Origin: Actinomycetota bacterium | Lineage (GTDB): Bacteria; Actinomycetota; Actinomycetes; Actinomycetales; Microbacteriaceae | Length of the DNA stretch: 5,480 nucleotides | Assembly: GCA_009702405.1 (NCBI GenBank) | Contig: WLIC01000049.1 | Span: forward strand, 1 to 5,480 | Reading direction: 5' to 3' | Shown: positions 258 to 5,480 of the stretch, in pieces | Numbering within the stretch: position 1 is the first letter of the stretch | Layout: each line of letters begins with the position of its first letter | Notes under the pieces: generated by a model | Seen by the model: the letters and a program-made list of their open reading frames with translations, nothing else | Told to the model about the DNA's origin: nothing | The model's database searches: none | Translations under genes and position numbers: made by a program

Positions 258-689
258 ATGACAAGGTCACTCACTGAACTAAAGGCTAAAACCAAGAGAT
301 ATAGAGTAATTGGTTCTATCTCACTATTTGTGGGAGGTCTCTCACTATTCATAGGATCCACACTCAACCATCAAGAGTGCATTGGTGCCTGTTCGACACA
401 GGACTGGTTCAATGCTGGAGGCAATCCAAACGCTGTTTGGTTTACCGTGCAAGATGGTGGGTTCGCAGTCGCCTTTGGATGGATATTCATTGCACTTGGA
501 ATTTGGGCAACTACTTTAGCTGTTCACTTTAATTCATTGATTAAGTCTTCATCGTCAATTATTGAAGGACTTAGAGGAACGAAGGGAACAGTCGCATCTT
601 CTCAAAATGATAAGGAAGCTGCATTTTGTCAACATTGCGGGTCCCGAAGAGCAGGCGCTTTTTGTGCGACTTGCGGTTCCGCTTTTTAA
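258..689 (+). CDS. Two-TM membrane protein with C-terminal zinc ribbon, unknown function
   Basis: I do not recognise a family for the whole 143-residue protein. A basic N-terminus (residues 1-16) precedes TM segment 1 at about 18-34. An extracytoplasmic loop holds C41 and C45, which could form a disulfide. TM segment 2 spans about 67-90, and a Ser-rich linker leads to a zinc ribbon with C124, C127, C136 and C139 (CxxC-x8-CxxC). The positive-inside rule puts the ribbon in the cytoplasm. The start at 258 has only a weak purine-rich stretch upstream (AAAAGAGA at 242-249). It is the first gene inside the putative island, transcribed away from the tRNA and convergent with the lipoprotein gene. The ribbon mirrors the N-terminal one in the protein encoded at 1359-1907, suggesting a shared task, but that is inference. 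Confidence 0.8.
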   Translation: MTRSLTELKAKTKRYRVIGSISLFVGGLSLFIGSTLNHQECIGACSTQDWFNAGGNPNAVWFTVQDGGFAVAFGWIFIALGIWATTLAVHFNSLIKSSSSIIEGLRGTKGTVASSQNDKEAAFCQHCGSRRAGAFCATCGSAF

Positions 690-730
690 AGTTATGTTTA
701 GTGACTGTGGAGTTTTAGGAATGTTTCCTC

Positions 731-757
731 AGTGGTGACTAAGTAATTAGTGCCACT
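731..757. terminator. Possible hairpin between convergent genes
   Basis: AGTGG-TG-ACTA at 731-741 pairs with TAGT-G-CCACT at 748-757, giving nine pairs, a small internal loop and a six-base loop. It sits between the ends of two convergent genes, where a bidirectional terminator would be expected. No T tract follows on either strand, so the call is weak. Confidence 0.3.
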
Positions 758-786
758 TATGATTTAATAATTGCTACTTCTCATCA

Positions 787-1323
787 TCAAGGAATAGGTT
801 GATTGACAGGTAAGTCAGTATATTCCTTGTAGGTCAGGGTGCTGCAAGGCACCTTTGACTCCCTCTCTTTATTCTCACTCATTAGAGAGAGCGCTTCATA
901 CTGAAGTGACGTTGGATAACCAATCACCGGTTCAATCATGTACCAGTCAATCCAATCAAGAAGAAATTTATCGTCTTCCTTCAGGCGGGCAAGAAAGAGT
1001 TTTTGATCTCGAGTAATAGAAGACTTGTTCGCTTGTTCATAGCTCCTGTAATACTTCAGTATTGACCGAATTCGTGATCGAGCTTGTTCACCAGAGGTGG
1101 ACTCGTAATATATCGATTTCATAACCTCGGATGTCTGTTGAACCCTGGTTTCAATTTTCTCGCAGTCAGCTCCGAATAAAATCGGTTTTTGTATGGAATT
1201 CGATGAAGTGCAGGCAATCATGGTCAATGAAAGCGATGCGACCATAAATGACATCGCTAGGCGCAGCCCAACTATCTGTTTGGAGTTTCTGGTTGAACCT
1301 GACATACCTAATATTTTTTTCAT
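787..1323 (-). CDS. Putative lipoprotein of unknown function
   Basis: The 178-residue product has a basic N-terminal region, a hydrophobic stretch at about 18-37 and a lipobox-like end (MIAC) with the candidate lipidated cysteine at C38, followed by a Ser/Thr-rich segment. This fits export and anchoring on the outer face of the membrane. The mature part is largely charged and helix-prone (about 55-150), with a Trp/Tyr-rich patch near 124-129 and two further cysteines, C54 and C160. The start at 1323 is supported by AAGAGG five bases upstream. The N-region of about 17 residues is long, so a downstream Met is possible. The gene follows the zinc-ribbon gene by 35 bases on the same strand, suggesting an operon inside the putative island. 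I recognise no family. Confidence 0.78.
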   Translation of the reverse strand: MKKILGMSGSTRNSKQIVGLRLAMSFMVASLSLTMIACTSSNSIQKPILFGADCEKIETRVQQTSEVMKSIYYESTSGEQARSRIRSILKYYRSYEQANKSSITRDQKLFLARLKEDDKFLLDWIDWYMIEPVIGYPTSLQYEALSLMSENKERESKVPCSTLTYKEYTDLPVNQPIP

Positions 1324-1358
1324 CGGAACCTCTTATTCAACATAAACTGAATGATTCT

Positions 1359-1907
1359 CTATTTGCTACTCGTGCCAAAGTACTGACTGCAATAGGCCCA
1401 TGCTTGATATGGTTTAGAACTCTTCTTATCTATAGAATTTGAGTCAGCTTCAAGGGCATCTCTCAGAAGAGAGTTGTGGGCTCTCCTAGCCATATCGCTA
1501 AGGTCACTTGAGAATGAGATTAAGGGCTGGTTTTGTATAGAAATTGGGGAATACCAGGCTAAGAAAAACTTTGCATAAGATTGGTTCAATTCTGTCTTAC
1601 AAATGGCGGCATCTTCTTGATTATTCTTCAATTGAGAAAAGCCGATAAAACTGATAAAGACGATTACAGCAGAGACAATGATGATTAAATCGCGTTTTCC
1701 CCCTCGAGTTTTGAGTCGCTGCTTACTGAAGGTCTTTGACGGGACATCTGCCAGTTTTGATTCATCTGCGGAAGTTGATTCATCAAGGGACTCTCTTTTA
1801 CCTGCAGCGGAGACCGTTGGTGCTTGAGTAAGGCTAGCTCCGCAGTTTCCACAGAAAGCGCTGGGCTCTTTAGAAAGTGGATTTCCACATTTTGAGCAAA
1901 AATTCAT
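1359..1907 (-). CDS. N-terminal zinc-ribbon, single-TM protein, unknown function
   Basis: The 182-residue product begins with a zinc ribbon of the kind annotated as 'zinc-ribbon domain' (C4, C7, C19, C22; CxxCG and CxxCG knuckles). A polar linker follows (about 25-72, ending in a basic patch KRLKTRGGKRD-like), then one TM helix at about 74-93 and an extracytoplasmic domain of roughly 90 residues with C103 and C173 as a possible disulfide. The basic patch predicts a cytoplasmic ribbon. AAAGGAA five bases before the ATG is a good ribosome binding site. A weak promoter may lie upstream (TTGAAA at 1963-1968 and TATTCT at 1943-1948, spacer 14, short). It is the first gene of a two-gene unit with the lipoprotein. 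This architecture resembles membrane sensors, but I assign no function. Confidence 0.8.
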   Translation of the reverse strand: MNFCSKCGNPLSKEPSAFCGNCGASLTQAPTVSAAGKRESLDESTSADESKLADVPSKTFSKQRLKTRGGKRDLIIIVSAVIVFISFIGFSQLKNNQEDAAICKTELNQSYAKFFLAWYSPISIQNQPLISFSSDLSDMARRAHNSLLRDALEADSNSIDKKSSKPYQAWAYCSQYFGTSSK

Positions 1908-1999
1908 TCGATTTCCTTTTTTGTGAGTTCCTGAACGGTTACAGAATAATAGAGTAAGCAGGTTTCAAGTCTGATACGCACGCACTTTTTTAGTAACGA

Positions 2000-2029
2000 T
2001 TGACAGTTTTTTAATACTCTTACTAAATT
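2000..2029 (+). promoter_or_regulatory. Possible promoter aimed at the tRNA 3' fragment
   Basis: A consensus -35 (TTGACA, 2000-2005) is followed after 18 bases by TAAATT (2024-2029), a four-of-six match to the -10 consensus. Predicted initiation is near 2036, where the tRNA-like repeat begins, and the terminator ends at 2106, so the product would be about 70 nt. TACTAA at 2021-2026 is an alternative -10 but gives a 15-base spacer. Direction and function are inferred only. Confidence 0.35.
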
Positions 2030-2035
2030 ACAAGG

Positions 2036-2069
2036 CGGTGGGTTCAGGGTTCGATTCCCGGGGAGCGCA
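2036..2069 (+). pseudogene. tRNA-Lys 3' fragment (T arm and acceptor strand only)
   Basis: The T loop TTCGATT, the acceptor strand GGAGCGC and discriminator A are kept. No D arm or anticodon arm can be found upstream. The T stem carries a C-to-A change at 2046 that makes an A-G mismatch, so it is not under full tRNA selection. Confidence 0.85.
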
Positions 2070-2071
2070 TG

Positions 2072-2106
2072 AACCCCAACTCCTTTTCAATAGGACTGGG
2101 GTTTTT
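2072..2106 (+). terminator. Second, diverged copy of the tRNA terminator
   Basis: AACCCCA pairs with TGGGGTT, then after an internal loop (AC opposite C) TCCT pairs with AGGA, followed by five T. Relative to the left copy, G77-C96 has become A2078-T2097, a paired change that keeps the stem. The T tract exists only for + strand transcription, so it would not stop the minus-strand deaminase operon efficiently. Confidence 0.75.
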
Positions 2107-2121
2107 ACTTTAACTTAGGGA

Positions 2122-2592
2122 CTAGTCTTCCCCGATGTCTTCATTCCAAAGTGATGGGTTAGCAATGATGAAATCACCCATGACTTTGATGAGACCTGGA
2201 TCGTTCATGACTGTGACATCACAGCCATGTTCTTGGACCCAGTCTTGACCACCTTTAAAGTTGATGGCGTCGCCAACTAGCAGTTTGCCGATGTTGAACT
2301 GACGAATAAGACCTGAGCAGTACCAGCAAGGGGAGAGACTGGTAGCTAGGGTTACGTTTTTGTATGAACGCTGTCTGCCAGCGTTTCTAAATGCACTGGT
2401 TTCACCATGCATAGATGCGTCACCTTGTTGGACGCGAAGATTGTGACCGGATCCTAGAAGGACACCGTTTTGATCAAAGAGAGCAGCTCCAATTGGAATG
2501 CCACCCTCTGATAAACCTAAGTGAGCCTCGGCTATGGCAACCGACAGTTTGTCTTCATCTGTGATGAATACGTCTCCTGGTTTGAAATCCAT
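2122..2592 (-). CDS. Yeast-type small zinc cytosine deaminase
   Basis: It is predicted to hydrolyse cytosine to uracil and ammonia in the cytoplasm. The 156-residue protein has the cytidine-deaminase fold motifs: H62-x-E64 (HGE, zinc ligand and proton shuttle) and P88-C89-xx-C92 (zinc ligands). The segment GGIPIGAALF, then GHN with N51, and the tail W149-x-EDIGE with D152 match what I recall of Saccharomyces Fcy1 almost position for position, including its length of 158. It is thus unlike the amidohydrolase CodA of E. coli. The start at 2592 has a strong SD (AAGAGGAG at 2601-2608, 8-base spacer). It lies 29 bases behind the permease gene, as its likely operon partner. The start region is embedded in a 15-bp inverted repeat. 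A related nucleoside or guanine deaminase activity is less likely given the Fcy1-type tail. Confidence 0.9.
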   Translation of the reverse strand: MDFKPGDVFITDEDKLSVAIAEAHLGLSEGGIPIGAALFDQNGVLLGSGHNLRVQQGDASMHGETSAFRNAGRQRSYKNVTLATSLSPCWYCSGLIRQFNIGKLLVGDAINFKGGQDWVQEHGCDVTVMNDPGLIKVMGDFIIANPSLWNEDIGED

Positions 2593-2603
2593 AGCCGAGG
2601 CTC
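2523..2603 (-). promoter_or_regulatory. Structured mRNA element occluding the deaminase start codon
   Basis: A perfect 15-bp inverted repeat lies at 2589-2603 and 2523-2537. In the minus-strand mRNA the 5' arm holds the last three bases of the SD (GAG), the rest of the leader, the AUG and the next base. The 3' arm lies in codons 19-24. Between the arms, AACC and GGTT can extend the stem, and two directly adjacent small hairpins can form: TTCATC/GATGAA over 2554-2568 and GACA/TGTC over 2543-2553. The fold is a branched junction that would hide the start codon. The pairing is seen directly. Control of translation by a ligand, by ribosome traffic from the permease gene or by a protein is inference. 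Confidence 0.55.
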
Positions 2604-2621
2604 CTCTTATTTAGGTTTTAG

Positions 2622-4028
2622 TTATTTCTTTTTGGTAGTTCCTAGCACTGTTGCCAGTACGTAGTAGATGATTGCAGCAGAAACGAATCCAACTGCAGCT
2701 GTCCAGTCACCGTTCTCTGCACCAGGACCAGTGAAGATTCCATAGAACTGAACGGTAGGCATTTCAGCCTTAGCGAACAGGTAAATAGAAACTGCTGTGG
2801 TTAGTACGAAGGTAATAGGACCAGCAATGTTGCGGTGCTTAGTCTCTTCCTTGACCATAGTGTCGATGTCCTGACCCTTGCGCATTAGGCGGTCAACCAC
2901 GAGGATTGCAACCCAAGGAGCTAGCCAGTAACCAACGGTTAGTAGGAATAGTTCGAATAGGAAACGGAAGTTGTCTTCAACTGCGAAGTATGAAAGACCT
3001 CCACCTAGAACACCTGCGATGATAACCATGATTGCGCGACGAGTCTTGAAGCCAAGCTTCACACCAGCAGCGATGAATGACATGGTACCTGAGTAGATGT
3101 TTAGAACGTTTGCAGAAACAGATCCAACAGCAATACCTAGAAGTGTTAGAACACCTAACCAGGCTGGCAATGTTGAAACGAATGCTGAAGTAGGTAGACC
3201 ATCTCCAACGATTCCACTCCAAGCAATTGCACCAACTGACATCAGCAAGGTGGTTGCAAAGAAGTTACCGAAACCAGCAAACATACCCACTGCGCGTGGA
3301 GATGAGTTAGCAGGAAGGTAGCGAGTGAAGTCAGCTGCGAAAGGAGTCCAACCCTGGGTGTAACCGTAAGCAAGAGCAACACCTACGCTGAAAGCACCCC
3401 ACTTGAAGTCGGTTCCAGCACTAGCAGCAAAGATGTTTGCAGCTTGTGCCTGAGAGATGATGATCGCGCTTACAGCCAAGAAAACTACTACTAGGTAGTA
3501 GAAAGCGTAACGTTCGAACTTCTGGATCAAGTTGTGACCTACGAAGGCAACAACTACCTGAACCAAGATGATGATGGTCACTGAAAGGGCAACAGGAACC
3601 TTAACTCCTGCAATGTCCAAAAGTGATGTCAGAGCGAAAGCACCGGAAGTGGTGTTAACTGCAAACCAGCCGATACCAGCAACAAGTGTTGAGGTTCCAG
3701 CAGGAATGATGTTTCCTCTTAGACCGAATGCAGTTCTAGATAGAACCATCTGTGGAACACCGTGGCGTGGACCCCAGCTAGAGAACCAGCCGTGGGTAAC
3801 TGCAGCCAAAGCGTTTCCTAGTGTTACAGCAAGAATTGCCTGCCATACATTTAGGCCAGCAAATACTGCTAAAGCTCCGATGAATATAGTTGCGAACTCG
3901 AGGTTCGGGGACGACCAAACTGTGAATAAGTGCCACGGTTTGCCGTGACGTTCACCCGCAGGAATTGGGGCGACGTCGTTGGTTTCGATTGCACCTGCCG
4001 AAGCAGTGTTTTTTGTGTTAGTAGTCAT
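2622..4028 (-). CDS. NCS1-family cytosine/purine permease
   Basis: An integral membrane transporter of the nucleobase:cation symporter-1 family, predicted to bring cytosine (possibly also purines) into the cell with H+ or Na+. With the chosen start it has 468 residues and about 12 hydrophobic segments, the family norm. Signature regions include HGKPWHLFTVW near 29-38, GVPQMVLSRTAFGLRG at about 90-105, GWFAVN at 120-125 and ADFTRYLP at 232-239, and a basic tail ending KKK. Starts at 4118 (498 aa) and 4070 (482 aa) are possible, but neither has an SD and they add non-conserved sequence. ATG at 4028 lies seven bases after a good -10 hexamer, fitting a leaderless mRNA. The Fcy1-like deaminase gene follows after 29 bases and suggests cytosine as the substrate. 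Substrate range cannot be read from sequence alone. Confidence 0.9.
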   Translation of the reverse strand: MTTNTKNTASAGAIETNDVAPIPAGERHGKPWHLFTVWSSPNLEFATIFIGALAVFAGLNVWQAILAVTLGNALAAVTHGWFSSWGPRHGVPQMVLSRTAFGLRGNIIPAGTSTLVAGIGWFAVNTTSGAFALTSLLDIAGVKVPVALSVTIIILVQVVVAFVGHNLIQKFERYAFYYLVVVFLAVSAIIISQAQAANIFAASAGTDFKWGAFSVGVALAYGYTQGWTPFAADFTRYLPANSSPRAVGMFAGFGNFFATTLLMSVGAIAWSGIVGDGLPTSAFVSTLPAWLGVLTLLGIAVGSVSANVLNIYSGTMSFIAAGVKLGFKTRRAIMVIIAGVLGGGLSYFAVEDNFRFLFELFLLTVGYWLAPWVAILVVDRLMRKGQDIDTMVKEETKHRNIAGPITFVLTTAVSIYLFAKAEMPTVQFYGIFTGPGAENGDWTAAVGFVSAAIIYYVLATVLGTTKKK

Positions 4029-4035
4029 AGGGGAG

Positions 4036-4041
4036 AGATTA
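4036..4041 (-). promoter_or_regulatory. -10 element for leaderless permease mRNA
   Basis: TAATCT on the minus strand ends seven bases before ATG 4028. Transcription would start at or within a base of the A of the ATG. No purine-rich SD precedes this ATG or the two upstream candidates, which supports a leaderless start. No convincing -35 is seen 16-18 bases further up, so an activator may be needed. Confidence 0.5.
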
Positions 4042-4082
4042 TTTGTTCGGCTGGGTGAATATCGTGACATTTCAGGTGTGGC

Positions 4083-4102
4083 TAACAGAAAGTTAACAGA
4101 AA
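4083..4102. repeat. Tandem TAACAGAAA repeat upstream of permease promoter
   Basis: TAACAGAAA occurs at 4083-4091 and again at 4094-4102, an 11-base period that puts both copies on the same face of the DNA helix. Relative to a transcription start at 4028 the pair lies at about -55 to -75, a position typical of an activator site. It could equally lie in a leader if transcription starts further upstream. No regulator is identified. Confidence 0.4.
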
Positions 4103-4135
4103 TGAAACTTAAAGCCATGTTTTATGCACCATTTG

Positions 4136-4191
4136 GAGGGTTATCAACAATTTAGGTGGATAAATAACCCTCTGTTTGACCACTCAGGGTT
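4136..4191. promoter_or_regulatory. Competing inverted repeats between divergent permease and protease genes
   Basis: GAGGGTTAT at 4136-4144 pairs perfectly with ATAACCCTC at 4164-4172 (9 bp, 19-base loop). The same AACCCT (4166-4171) can instead pair with AGGGTT at 4186-4191 (6 bp), which contains the likely SD of the + strand gene. Two mutually exclusive stems are therefore possible. At the DNA level the repeated AGGGTT/AACCCT units could also be an operator. Confidence 0.4.
4186..4189 (+). promoter_or_regulatory. SD deciding the GTG start of the SprT-like gene
   Basis: AGGG lies seven bases before GTG 4197, a good spacing, while the alternative ATG at 4206 would be 16 bases away. TAG at 4191-4193 is in frame, so the gene cannot extend further upstream. 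Confidence 0.55.
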
Positions 4192-4196
4192 AGCCT

Positions 4197-5021
4197 GTGT
4201 TTGCGATGATAGCCACAATCTCTAGAAACCTGACCCGATCTGGGTTAGTCCTAACCTGCGTAGGCGATACATACTGGGAAGTAAGGAAAACAGGGGAAGC
4301 TGAGCTAATTGCCAAAATTGGTCTAAAAGATTTCAAAGAGACTGGCCCATCAGCGTTTTTAGAGGTTGAACAGCATCTAACCGGAAGTATGGCCTGGATT
4401 GCCGAAGCCATTAGAGCAGTCATGGACTATGCCTTTGATGAACTCAAGCTAGGCAAGATATCTGTCAGAGCCTCAGTTGAACAGTTATCCCTTTTAGCAG
4501 CTCTTGAGGACTATGGTTTCGTCGAGAAATCTAGAAGTCATGAAGGTAAGAAGATCAGGTTGGTTGCTGATCGCTGGGATTACATCAGGTCACTTGCTGA
4601 AACCGAGATGTTAGAAAAACTAGAAGACCGTGAGTGGTCTTTTGGTTTTGATAGTGGTCGAAGAAGAGCGGGGCTTTGTTCTTATAACGATAAGAAGATC
4701 ACTGTTTCTAAATACTTAGCGCTGGTTCACTCTGTTGATGATGTGATGCAAACTGTCTTGCATGAGATTGCTCATGCTCTGTGTGGTCCTAAAGAAGGTC
4801 ACGGTAAGAAGTGGCTAGCTACGGCTAAACGTATTGGTTACCGGAATGACAAATACACCGGTGAAGAGATAGCACAGGTTTATGCACCATATAAAGGTCT
4901 GTGCCCAAATGGACACGAACACTATAGATACCAGAGACCTAAGCGTCTATACAGTTGTCACCACTGTGCCAGTGGCTTCAACAAGCTATACATGATTGAT
5001 TGGGTAGCTAGAGCTAGCTAG
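4197..5021 (+). CDS. GNAT-like domain fused to SprT-like zinc metalloprotease
   Basis: The 274-residue protein has two parts. Residues about 25-132 follow the RimJ/RimL GNAT pattern (YWEV..., the helix EAIRAVMDYAFDELKLGKISV, then LEDYGFVEKS), but the first strand and helices are absent and the acetyl-CoA loop is degenerate (GSMAWIAEA at 63-71 where RGxGxATEA is usual). Residues about 145-274 are a SprT-like domain: H189-E190-xx-H193 (HEIAH) with the likely third zinc ligand H202 in GHGKKW, then a zinc ribbon with C236, H240 or a nearby residue, C254 and C257. SprT/Spartan-type proteases act on DNA-bound or crosslinked proteins, but bacterial members are poorly defined, so a role in protein turnover or DNA repair is inference. 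The start is GTG with AGGG seven bases upstream. It ends overlapping the convergent prenyltransferase stop by four bases. Confidence 0.85.
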   Translation: MFAMIATISRNLTRSGLVLTCVGDTYWEVRKTGEAELIAKIGLKDFKETGPSAFLEVEQHLTGSMAWIAEAIRAVMDYAFDELKLGKISVRASVEQLSLLAALEDYGFVEKSRSHEGKKIRLVADRWDYIRSLAETEMLEKLEDREWSFGFDSGRRRAGLCSYNDKKITVSKYLALVHSVDDVMQTVLHEIAHALCGPKEGHGKKWLATAKRIGYRNDKYTGEEIAQVYAPYKGLCPNGHEHYRYQRPKRLYSCHHCASGFNKLYMIDWVARAS

Positions 5022-5480
5022 AAAACAACAGAGCTAATCAACAGGATTGAAACAACAAACCCTGCAAAGAAGTTCAACCAGATAAATCTGCGCCAACCCT
5101 TATTAGCCTTCTCACAATCAGCGTCAGTGATGTTCAGGTATGGACTCAGAATAAAAAGGTAAGGAACTGCAGCAACGGCAGCTAGTTGTCCTGGCCAAGT
5201 TGTGTTCATAACTAGAACACCGGCTAAGCCGTAACAGATAAAAGCAAACCAGACTGTTGCCCTTGCACCAATCATGGTTGCGATGCTGGAGATGTTAGCT
5301 TCACGATCTGCTTTCACATCCTGAACTGCACCAAAGGCATGTGATGCAATACCCCAAAGAGTGAAAGCTAAGACACAAGATAAAACAGCACGGTCAGCAA
5401 GATCTGCACCAGAGAGTGACATCGCGTAAATCATTGGTCCGACGAAGTGAGAGGAAGAGGTGATGGAGTCCAGAAAGCCA
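5018..5480 (-). CDS. crtEb: UbiA-family prenyltransferase, lycopene elongase-like (C-terminal part)
   Basis: The reading frame runs off the window: 153 residues are visible and the N-terminal half, with the first Asp-rich motif, is missing. The frame continues past Met 5434 to the edge with GFLDSITSSSHFVGP, so that Met is internal. The second Asp-rich motif D-V-K-A-D-R-E, in the context SHAFGAVQDVKADREANISS, would bind prenyl diphosphate through Mg2+. Four hydrophobic segments are visible. The LDS-TSS-HFVGP and FGAVQD-DRE-SIAT patterns match lycopene elongases, which add C5 units to lycopene on the way to C50 carotenoids (decaprenoxanthin, sarcinaxanthin type) in the membrane. Other carotenoid genes would be expected just beyond the right edge. 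Another UbiA enzyme, for example in menaquinone synthesis, is less likely. The stop shares CTAG with the convergent protease gene. Confidence 0.85.
   Translation of the reverse strand, partial: GFLDSITSSSHFVGPMIYAMSLSGADLADRAVLSCVLAFTLWGIASHAFGAVQDVKADREANISSIATMIGARATVWFAFICYGLAGVLVMNTTWPGQLAAVAAVPYLFILSPYLNITDADCEKANKGWRRFIWLNFFAGFVVSILLISSVVF

Follow-up and report, generated by a model that had tools for sequence, protein, structure and literature searches.

The window, by which we mean the whole 5,480-nucleotide stretch of DNA analyzed here, carries on its minus strand a gene for an NCS1 nucleobase permease and, directly downstream, a gene for a cytosine deaminase relative. The best PDB match of the deaminase is the cytosine deaminase 1uaq (E 2.5e-34), and the solved structures nearest to it in sequence belong to the kind that we label 'yeast-type', a term of our own choosing; the only NCBIfam match is to TadA and is sub-threshold. 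For the permease we chose the ATG at 4028 as the start, while the mechanical open reading frame begins at 4118. Its stop codon occupies 2622-2624, which leaves a gap of 29 nt to the deaminase AUG. The features considered here are the following.

2122..2592, minus strand: deaminase gene, 156 aa (PF00383; relative of yeast-type cytosine deaminases)
2590..2592, minus strand: start codon AUG of the deaminase gene
2622..4028, minus strand: NCS1 nucleobase permease gene (PF02133; TIGR00800 below its cut-off)
2601..2605, minus strand: likely Shine-Dalgarno (SD) sequence AGGAG, assigned from sequence, three of its five bases lying within the start-codon helix
2589..2603, minus strand: 5' arm of the start-codon helix P1, GAGCCUCGGCUAUGG
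2523..2537, minus strand: 3' arm of P1, CCAUAGCCGAGGCUC, spanning the second base of codon 19 to the first base of codon 24
2593, minus strand: base -1, partner of 2533 in the strongest covarying column pair
2533, minus strand: third base of Ile codon 20 (AUA in the window), partner of base -1
2611..2618, minus strand: 5' strand of the outer helix P0, AAACCUAA, from the predicted fold and a swap test
2513..2520, minus strand: 3' strand of P0, UUAGGUUU, in codons 25-27, from the predicted fold and a swap test
2554..2568, minus strand: apical hairpin P3, UUCAUC-ACA-GAUGAA, in codons 9-13, from the predicted fold and its relatives

On the far side of the deaminase gene, the start of the window cuts through a tRNA gene (1-69) that has an Rfam tRNA match and, by eye, the anticodon CTT (Lys); ARAGORN found no tRNA at this remnant. 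The 3' end of the tRNA and the terminator-like repeat that follows it are duplicated ~2 kb away (about 2036-2113), and the two copies flank open reading frames at 258-689, 787-1323 and 1359-1907. Judged by this arrangement, the segment adjoining the deaminase gene looks like an island integrated into a tRNA gene. Two of its predicted proteins, from 258-689 (plus strand) and 1359-1907 (minus strand), are small and have zinc-ribbon-like ends with cysteine pairs; the latter matches Pfam Zn_Ribbon_1 below its cut-off, and the former has no Pfam match. Beyond the permease, the frame at 4197-5021 (plus strand) encodes an SprT-like C-terminal part and has a weak N-terminal acetyltransferase match, below cut-off.

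A first-pass annotation had pointed to a perfect 15-bp inverted repeat, 2589-2603 with 2523-2537, that closes the end of the SD and the deaminase AUG against codons 19-24. Both statements are confirmed: the arms pair without a mismatch, and the 5' arm spans the last three SD bases, base -1, the AUG and the first base of codon 2. Folding of the minus-strand RNA from 2640 to 2500, which that annotation had proposed, gave a stable rod of -49 kcal/mol (z -6.4), and none of 200 shuffled sequences was equally stable. The rod consists of the outer helix P0, the start-codon helix P1, a loosely paired middle and the apical hairpin P3. In the predicted fold, a stable helix takes in the start codon of the native mRNA, with an unpaired probability for the AUG of about 0.001 in the window and at most 0.01 in 40 of 44 loci.

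The branched, junction-like structure of the earlier description is not recovered, since the predicted fold in the window is an unbranched rod. Of the two adjacent hairpins on which it relied, the one at 2554-2568 is confirmed and recurs in most relatives, but the other (2543-2553) amounts to only 4 bp (GACA-AAC-UGUC), is absent from the minimum-energy fold and, by eye in the alignment, is not kept in most relatives. The AACC/GGTT extension is present but is 8 bp long (2611-2618 with 2513-2520). P3 has six pairs, and across alignment A3 (40 rows) 93.2% of its cells are paired; in most relatives it appears at the same place as UCUUCG/CGAAGA or a close form. P0 is CGAG/CUCG in most relatives, with 87.8% of cells paired in that register, and the clade of the window uses another register. 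We make no claim for a further candidate helix, P2 (codons 3-6 with 16-18), in which just 76% of cells pair. RNAalifold on A3 returned only 8 of the 13 P1 pairs plus three pairs between codons 22-23 and 26-27; we retained P1 because per-sequence folds and pair counts support it.

A perfect repeat of 15 within 120 nt was absent from all 200 order-1 Markov windows of the same length, the longest being 14. The same question can be put to a relative's genome, G006, of which 800 kb (40 of 70 pieces of 20 kb) was scanned for ATG open reading frames of at least 100 aa. With shadow frames counted, the deaminase had the longest perfect repeat covering a start among 923 frames, at 12 bp against 9 for the next; with shadow frames removed, it ranked 2nd of 707 in fold energy and 10th in AUG closure within the part examined. 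Together with the covariation and synonymous sites described below, the Markov windows bear out the earlier judgement that such a pairing is improbable by chance.

For comparison we assembled 40 loci of the genus, reached via locus L001 (39 of 67 genomes with the gene, plus the window), and four loci of a sister genus (L113-L116; gene in 4 of 15 genomes), making 44 in all. We infer that the genus is Rhodoluna from named proteins among the matches (P0075, P0079). At least 12 of the 13 core pairs of P1 are present in 36 of the 40 genus loci, the window included: 33 have all 13 and three have 12. The remaining loci have 10 (L098 and L106) or 8 (L103 and L110). Core pairs number 9, 11, 8 and 9 in L113 to L116 of the sister genus, where a gapless helix scan gave 5, 10, 8 and 9 contiguous pairs, respectively. 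The noncoding 5' arm is conserved, and the spacer further upstream is not. In three loci with longer N-termini (15- or 3-nt insert; L095, L143 and L104), the 5' arm lies on the new AUG, which ties the helix to the start codon and not to the spacer. L098 also has a longer start, with only seven contiguous core pairs and a gap of 27 nt.

A deeper scan covered 102 of 103 loci (all but L070, which lies too close to the end of its contig) and recorded for each the single best helix without gaps that the 110 nt of upstream sequence could form with the region of codons 19-26. Four of these loci are duplicates, L003 of L113 and L001, L002 and L004 of genus loci; among the best helices of the remaining, mostly GC-rich loci, no counterpart of the 5' arm was seen. 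In two distant loci, L018 and L041, helices of 8 and 10 pairs, G-U included, overlap a possible GTG start; these pairings of codons 19-26 with upstream sequence may be chance matches in GC-rich DNA. A search of viral contigs found no relative of the deaminase protein.

The pattern GAGGCCTCGGCNATG occurs in 26 of the 67 genus genomes, as a single copy at the deaminase gene in 25 and as two copies in G023; on this count we rejected a genome-wide regulon. The extra exact copy of GAGGCCTCGGCGATG in G023, at G023:C3:246833-246847, lies away from the deaminase gene and was seen in this genome only. The pattern CCTCGGCNATG is common across the 67 genomes of the genus of G001, often at 10-25 places per genome, compared with 0-3 for a reversed control that is not codon-neutral, so codon use may explain the excess. 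A search with an RNA model built on A3 (R1) matched only the deaminase locus, in 39 of the 67 genus genomes and with antisense matches there too; across the order, under strict filters, it matched one of 297 genomes, G001 itself. Because R1 has coding sequence inside it, was trained on the same loci and matches the three loci that have lost the helix, it serves as a search aid and not as proof.

The first-pass annotation had suggested looking for covariation between the arms. Among 5466 column pairs in 44 rows, base -1 with the third base of codon 20 ranks first (corrected G 54.2, the next 21.8), and the other pairs that were looked up rank from 564 to 5114; the covariation rests on the -1/codon-20 pair because most P1 pairs are constrained by the protein or by the AUG. 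In A3, from which L103, L106, L110 and L113 are left out, this pair is A-U in 27, U-A in 8 and G-C in 4 of 39 distinct rows, with none unpaired and both sides changed in 12. In alignment A2, which includes those four loci and leaves out the length variants L095, L098, L104 and L143, it is unpaired in 4 of 39 rows, namely the clade with a terminator between the genes (see below) and L113. The earlier note had named a change in one arm without compensation, in an unchanged expression context, as evidence against the helix; at the -1/codon-20 pair there is none in A3, and the context of the terminator clade differs. L098 keeps the -1 pair and loses other pairs.

On a tree of codons 28-156, U-A at this position has two origins, both with strong branch support, and four separate rows (L094, L098, L104 and L114) have G-C. 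Base -4 with codon 21 varies in the sister genus from G-C (L113 and L114) to G-U (L115) and A-U (L116). The tree-based sign test for A at -1 yielded five independent pairs on branches with support, of which four agree, none disagrees and one shows no difference (p 0.125); for U at -1 both of two agree, and for G three of four as a rule, none of these being significant. In A2, 94.5% of cells pair, with a covariation score of 0.096 versus 0.049 in shuffles, and neither pairs changed on both sides nor counts of pair types exceeded shuffles in A3 or A2. Swap tests on 40 loci showed that P1, P0 and the halves of the loop prefer their own partner strand (0 of 2000 permutations each; for P0, -7.9 kcal/mol with its own strand versus -6.5 swapped); these tests leave out L103, L106, L110 and L113, and related rows weaken their apparent strength. 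Overall, the helix is kept by wobble changes and by compensatory ones, the latter mainly at one base pair, for which the sign test alone is not significant.

Synonymous sites in codons 1-24, also proposed for inspection, were counted in 33 rows, which exclude three partial genes and L098, L103, L106 and L110. All 33 have GCC at codon 21 and GAG at codon 22, and codon 19 is GCC in 29 and GCU in 4, i.e. always G-C or G-U against the fixed G of the AUG; over codons 31-156, 68% of the Ala codons end in C or U. AUA, which is codon 20 in the window, is scarce: over codons 31-156 of 37 genes it encodes 13 of 292 Ile residues. Thus the expected constraint was found at codons 21 and 22 and nearly so at 19, but it is not confined to the arms, as bias also appears at codons 2, 5, 6, 8, 13, 78, 85 and 120, among others.

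The 18 aligned proteins all have AIAEA at residues 19-23. The protein thus fixes most of the 3' arm, and the repeat might be thought an accident or a by-product of protein conservation in codons 19-24. We find this scarcely credible, given that the noncoding 5' arm is conserved where the spacer upstream of it is not, that synonymous sites follow the pairing and that -1 and codon 20 covary. By these comparisons the repeat is a selected RNA helix, not chance. Complementary arms would also co-vary if selection acted on DNA, on two half operators 66 bp apart or on a recombination site, and the permeases do change beside a constant deaminase (in L083, 97% deaminase and 56% permease identity). A DNA-level role is nonetheless very improbable: the core tolerates eight G-U or U-G wobble cells (A3), with only C or U at codon 19 in the 33 rows; inversion would wreck codons 2-18; an operator should persist when the gene is transcribed apart; and the 15-base arm is single in 25 of the 26 genomes containing it.

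An NCS1 permease match lies directly upstream of the deaminase gene in 44 of 44 loci, although in L092 it is only an end piece of 38% identity on the contig. Across the 36 helix-bearing genus loci the gap between the genes has a median of 29 nt (range 22-62), the longest belonging to L139, which keeps the helix. As in translationally coupled pairs, the genes of the window share a strand and are closely spaced (29 nt), with no intervening terminator. Identity to the permease of the window is mostly 50-58%, compared with 77-97% for the deaminase within the genus. L083 keeps the helix beside its divergent permease, and the 5' arm therefore moves together with the deaminase; in the sister genus, the permease of L116 is 80% identical to that of the window. 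The pattern suggests that the permease was replaced in L083, L086, L087, L116 and others, the breakpoint falling after its stop codon and before the deaminase hairpin.

A terminator-like hairpin stands in the gap at 3 of 44 loci, and these form the helix-less clade; three further matches to the terminator pattern fall inside the permease frame. In L103, L106 and L110 the gap is 159-186 nt long and contains a 12-pair terminator-like hairpin with a T run, and the helix is gone, with predicted probabilities of an unpaired AUG of 0.78, 0.29 and 0.68, respectively (0.55 in L113). Since the three form one clade (99/96), helix loss counts as one event. A sigma-70 consensus scan found no promoter-like site in or near these gaps, and we assume that the deaminase gene has a separate promoter there.

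Because the permease is always upstream, the gap is short and the one loss of the helix came with a terminator, we favor the reading that the helix makes translation of the deaminase depend on translation of the permease, a reading in which our confidence is evenly balanced. The rod would also be useless, and hence lost, once a terminator ends the permease message if its role were in mRNA processing or stability, as a cleavage site for a double-strand-specific nuclease or as a shield for the 3' end of the permease message, and a long near-perfect rod between two genes would suit that role. Such a role is decidedly improbable, as the helix sits exactly on the AUG even where the N-terminus is longer (L095, L143 and L104) and its 3' strand lies in translated codons that ribosomes would open.

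A third possibility is a regulated switch: opening or locking of the helix by a small molecule, for instance cytosine or uracil, or by a protein, which might be the deaminase. The conserved apical hairpin and the synonymous bias at codons 2, 5, 6, 8 and 13 favor it, since selection may act beyond the start helix, and most relatives have, by eye, a weak alternative hairpin in codons 21-26 (CCGAGG/CCUCGG), which is mismatched in the clade of the window. Helix loss in the lone gene, a single event, would be unexpected under control by ligand or protein, and neither the pattern nor the RNA model revealed a shared regulon. Rfam gave no family at this place, either in the window (E up to 1) or in five relatives (E up to 0.1), and no conserved unpaired core was seen in the alignment. 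By inspection, the element is a rod of coding sequence and does not have the conserved ligand-binding core of a riboswitch, which in most classes includes invariant unpaired bases. With its loop made of coding sequence, the nucleobase aptamer raised by the first-pass annotation is without support, and a switch of any kind seems unlikely.

To model a terminating ribosome, the 12 nt past the permease stop codon were removed before folding. The AUG stayed shut (at most 0.003 unpaired) in 36 of 36 helix-bearing genus loci and partly opened in L114 (0.42) and L116 (0.55), both with 12-nt gaps; it stayed shut in L115 (gap 18 nt). The SD gained more than 0.1 in openness at 15 of 35 helix-bearing genus loci (median 0.23 to 0.44), and in the window it did not open (0.31 to 0.25). 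The overlap of terminating ribosome and helix that unfolding requires is therefore not found in the genus, and is found in part in L114 and L116 only. As the AUG stays shut in the model, simple unfolding by the terminating ribosome would be insufficient, and in the genus the helix is more likely to be opened by a ribosome that scans or reinitiates.

The closed core under the modelled ribosome also fits a fixed throttle or timing device that lowers output for the permease-to-enzyme ratio with no real dependence on permease translation; in the timing variant, initiation is possible only before the 3' arm is transcribed. Two loci misfit strict coupling and count against it: L098, whose helix is weak despite the 27-nt gap, and L139, which retains the helix at 62 nt. 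Set against a throttle is the loss of the helix in the terminator-separated clade, though a promoter could set the ratio there, and we consider this explanation possible but doubtful.

Dependence on permease translation, the reading we prefer, would work as follows. The 29-nt spacer and the first 27 deaminase codons form a long rod, whose core of 13-15 bp, pairing bases -11/-9 to +4 with codons 19-23/24, shuts the start codon and, from its position, should keep independent 30S entry at the deaminase start low. The enzyme would be made mainly by ribosomes arriving from the permease through post-termination scanning or reinitiation, and in some relatives the terminating ribosome may begin by disrupting the outer helix and so releasing the SD. 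Once past about codon 10, a ribosome would hold the 3' arm open and leave the start free for the next. The deaminase would then be produced only where the transporter is being produced. A more elaborate form, which we think rather unlikely, is a self-gating lock: the helix excludes free ribosomes from the deaminase, a ribosome scanning from the permease first opens it, each translating ribosome holds it open during passage of about codons 10-28, and deaminase bursts would follow permease translation. The 51-nt loop is of a size that would leave the start accessible with one ribosome sitting on the 3' arm. The first-pass annotation had proposed translational control through a small molecule, a protein or coupling to the permease. 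A start codon hidden in a selected RNA structure supports control, probably, and coupling is the best fit of the three options, but its simplest form is not upheld.

At this locus a noncoding base and a synonymous codon position have evolved together as a single base pair, a clean natural example, with the scarce Ile codon AUA arising twice to match U before the AUG. Helix loss together with an intervening terminator leads to a testable prediction on when such locks are needed, and the system would allow a test of reinitiation versus unfolding near the spacing limit of coupling in small-genome actinobacteria.

The codBA operon of enterobacteria encodes a cytosine permease and a deaminase for cytosine salvage. 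The locus described here has the same permease-then-deaminase order and differs in its deaminase, which is of the yeast, PF00383 type. Among the papers listed by a literature search naming codBA, no title or abstract describes a translational lock, and those listed by searches for this genus or operon describe no such element. Operon structures that sequester a ribosome-binding site are already known, and the instance in this genus and operon is new.

Both models of coupling, unfolding and reinitiation, are described in the excerpted text of PMC12548453, where coupling with structures that hide the ribosome-binding site is an established mechanism. According to the same excerpts, coupling reaches gaps of up to about 40 nt in E. 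coli, several gene pairs show little coupling beyond +30 nt and two Firmicutes have stricter spacing (PMC12548453). In Salmonella, the abstract-level account of PMC8092293 describes a translation-aborting small open reading frame that promotes translation of an Mg2+ transporter; there too, the start region is sequestered in RNA behind an operon intergenic region, and the locked gene here is instead an enzyme. By eye, no small open reading frame was seen in the 29-nt gap. The closest parallels in the excerpts of PMC12548453 are rpmI-rplT of E. coli (+52 nt), MS2 coat-lysis and phage f1 VII-IX, which show coupling of the unfolding type. Like these pairs, the genes studied here are co-oriented, with short spacing or overlap, and the downstream start is shut by RNA structure (PMC12548453). 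Unlike them, as far as those excerpts describe them, the 3' arm lies in codons 19-23 of the downstream gene, the core helix is beyond the modelled reach of a ribosome at the upstream stop, and the lock is proposed from sequence comparison (PMC12548453).
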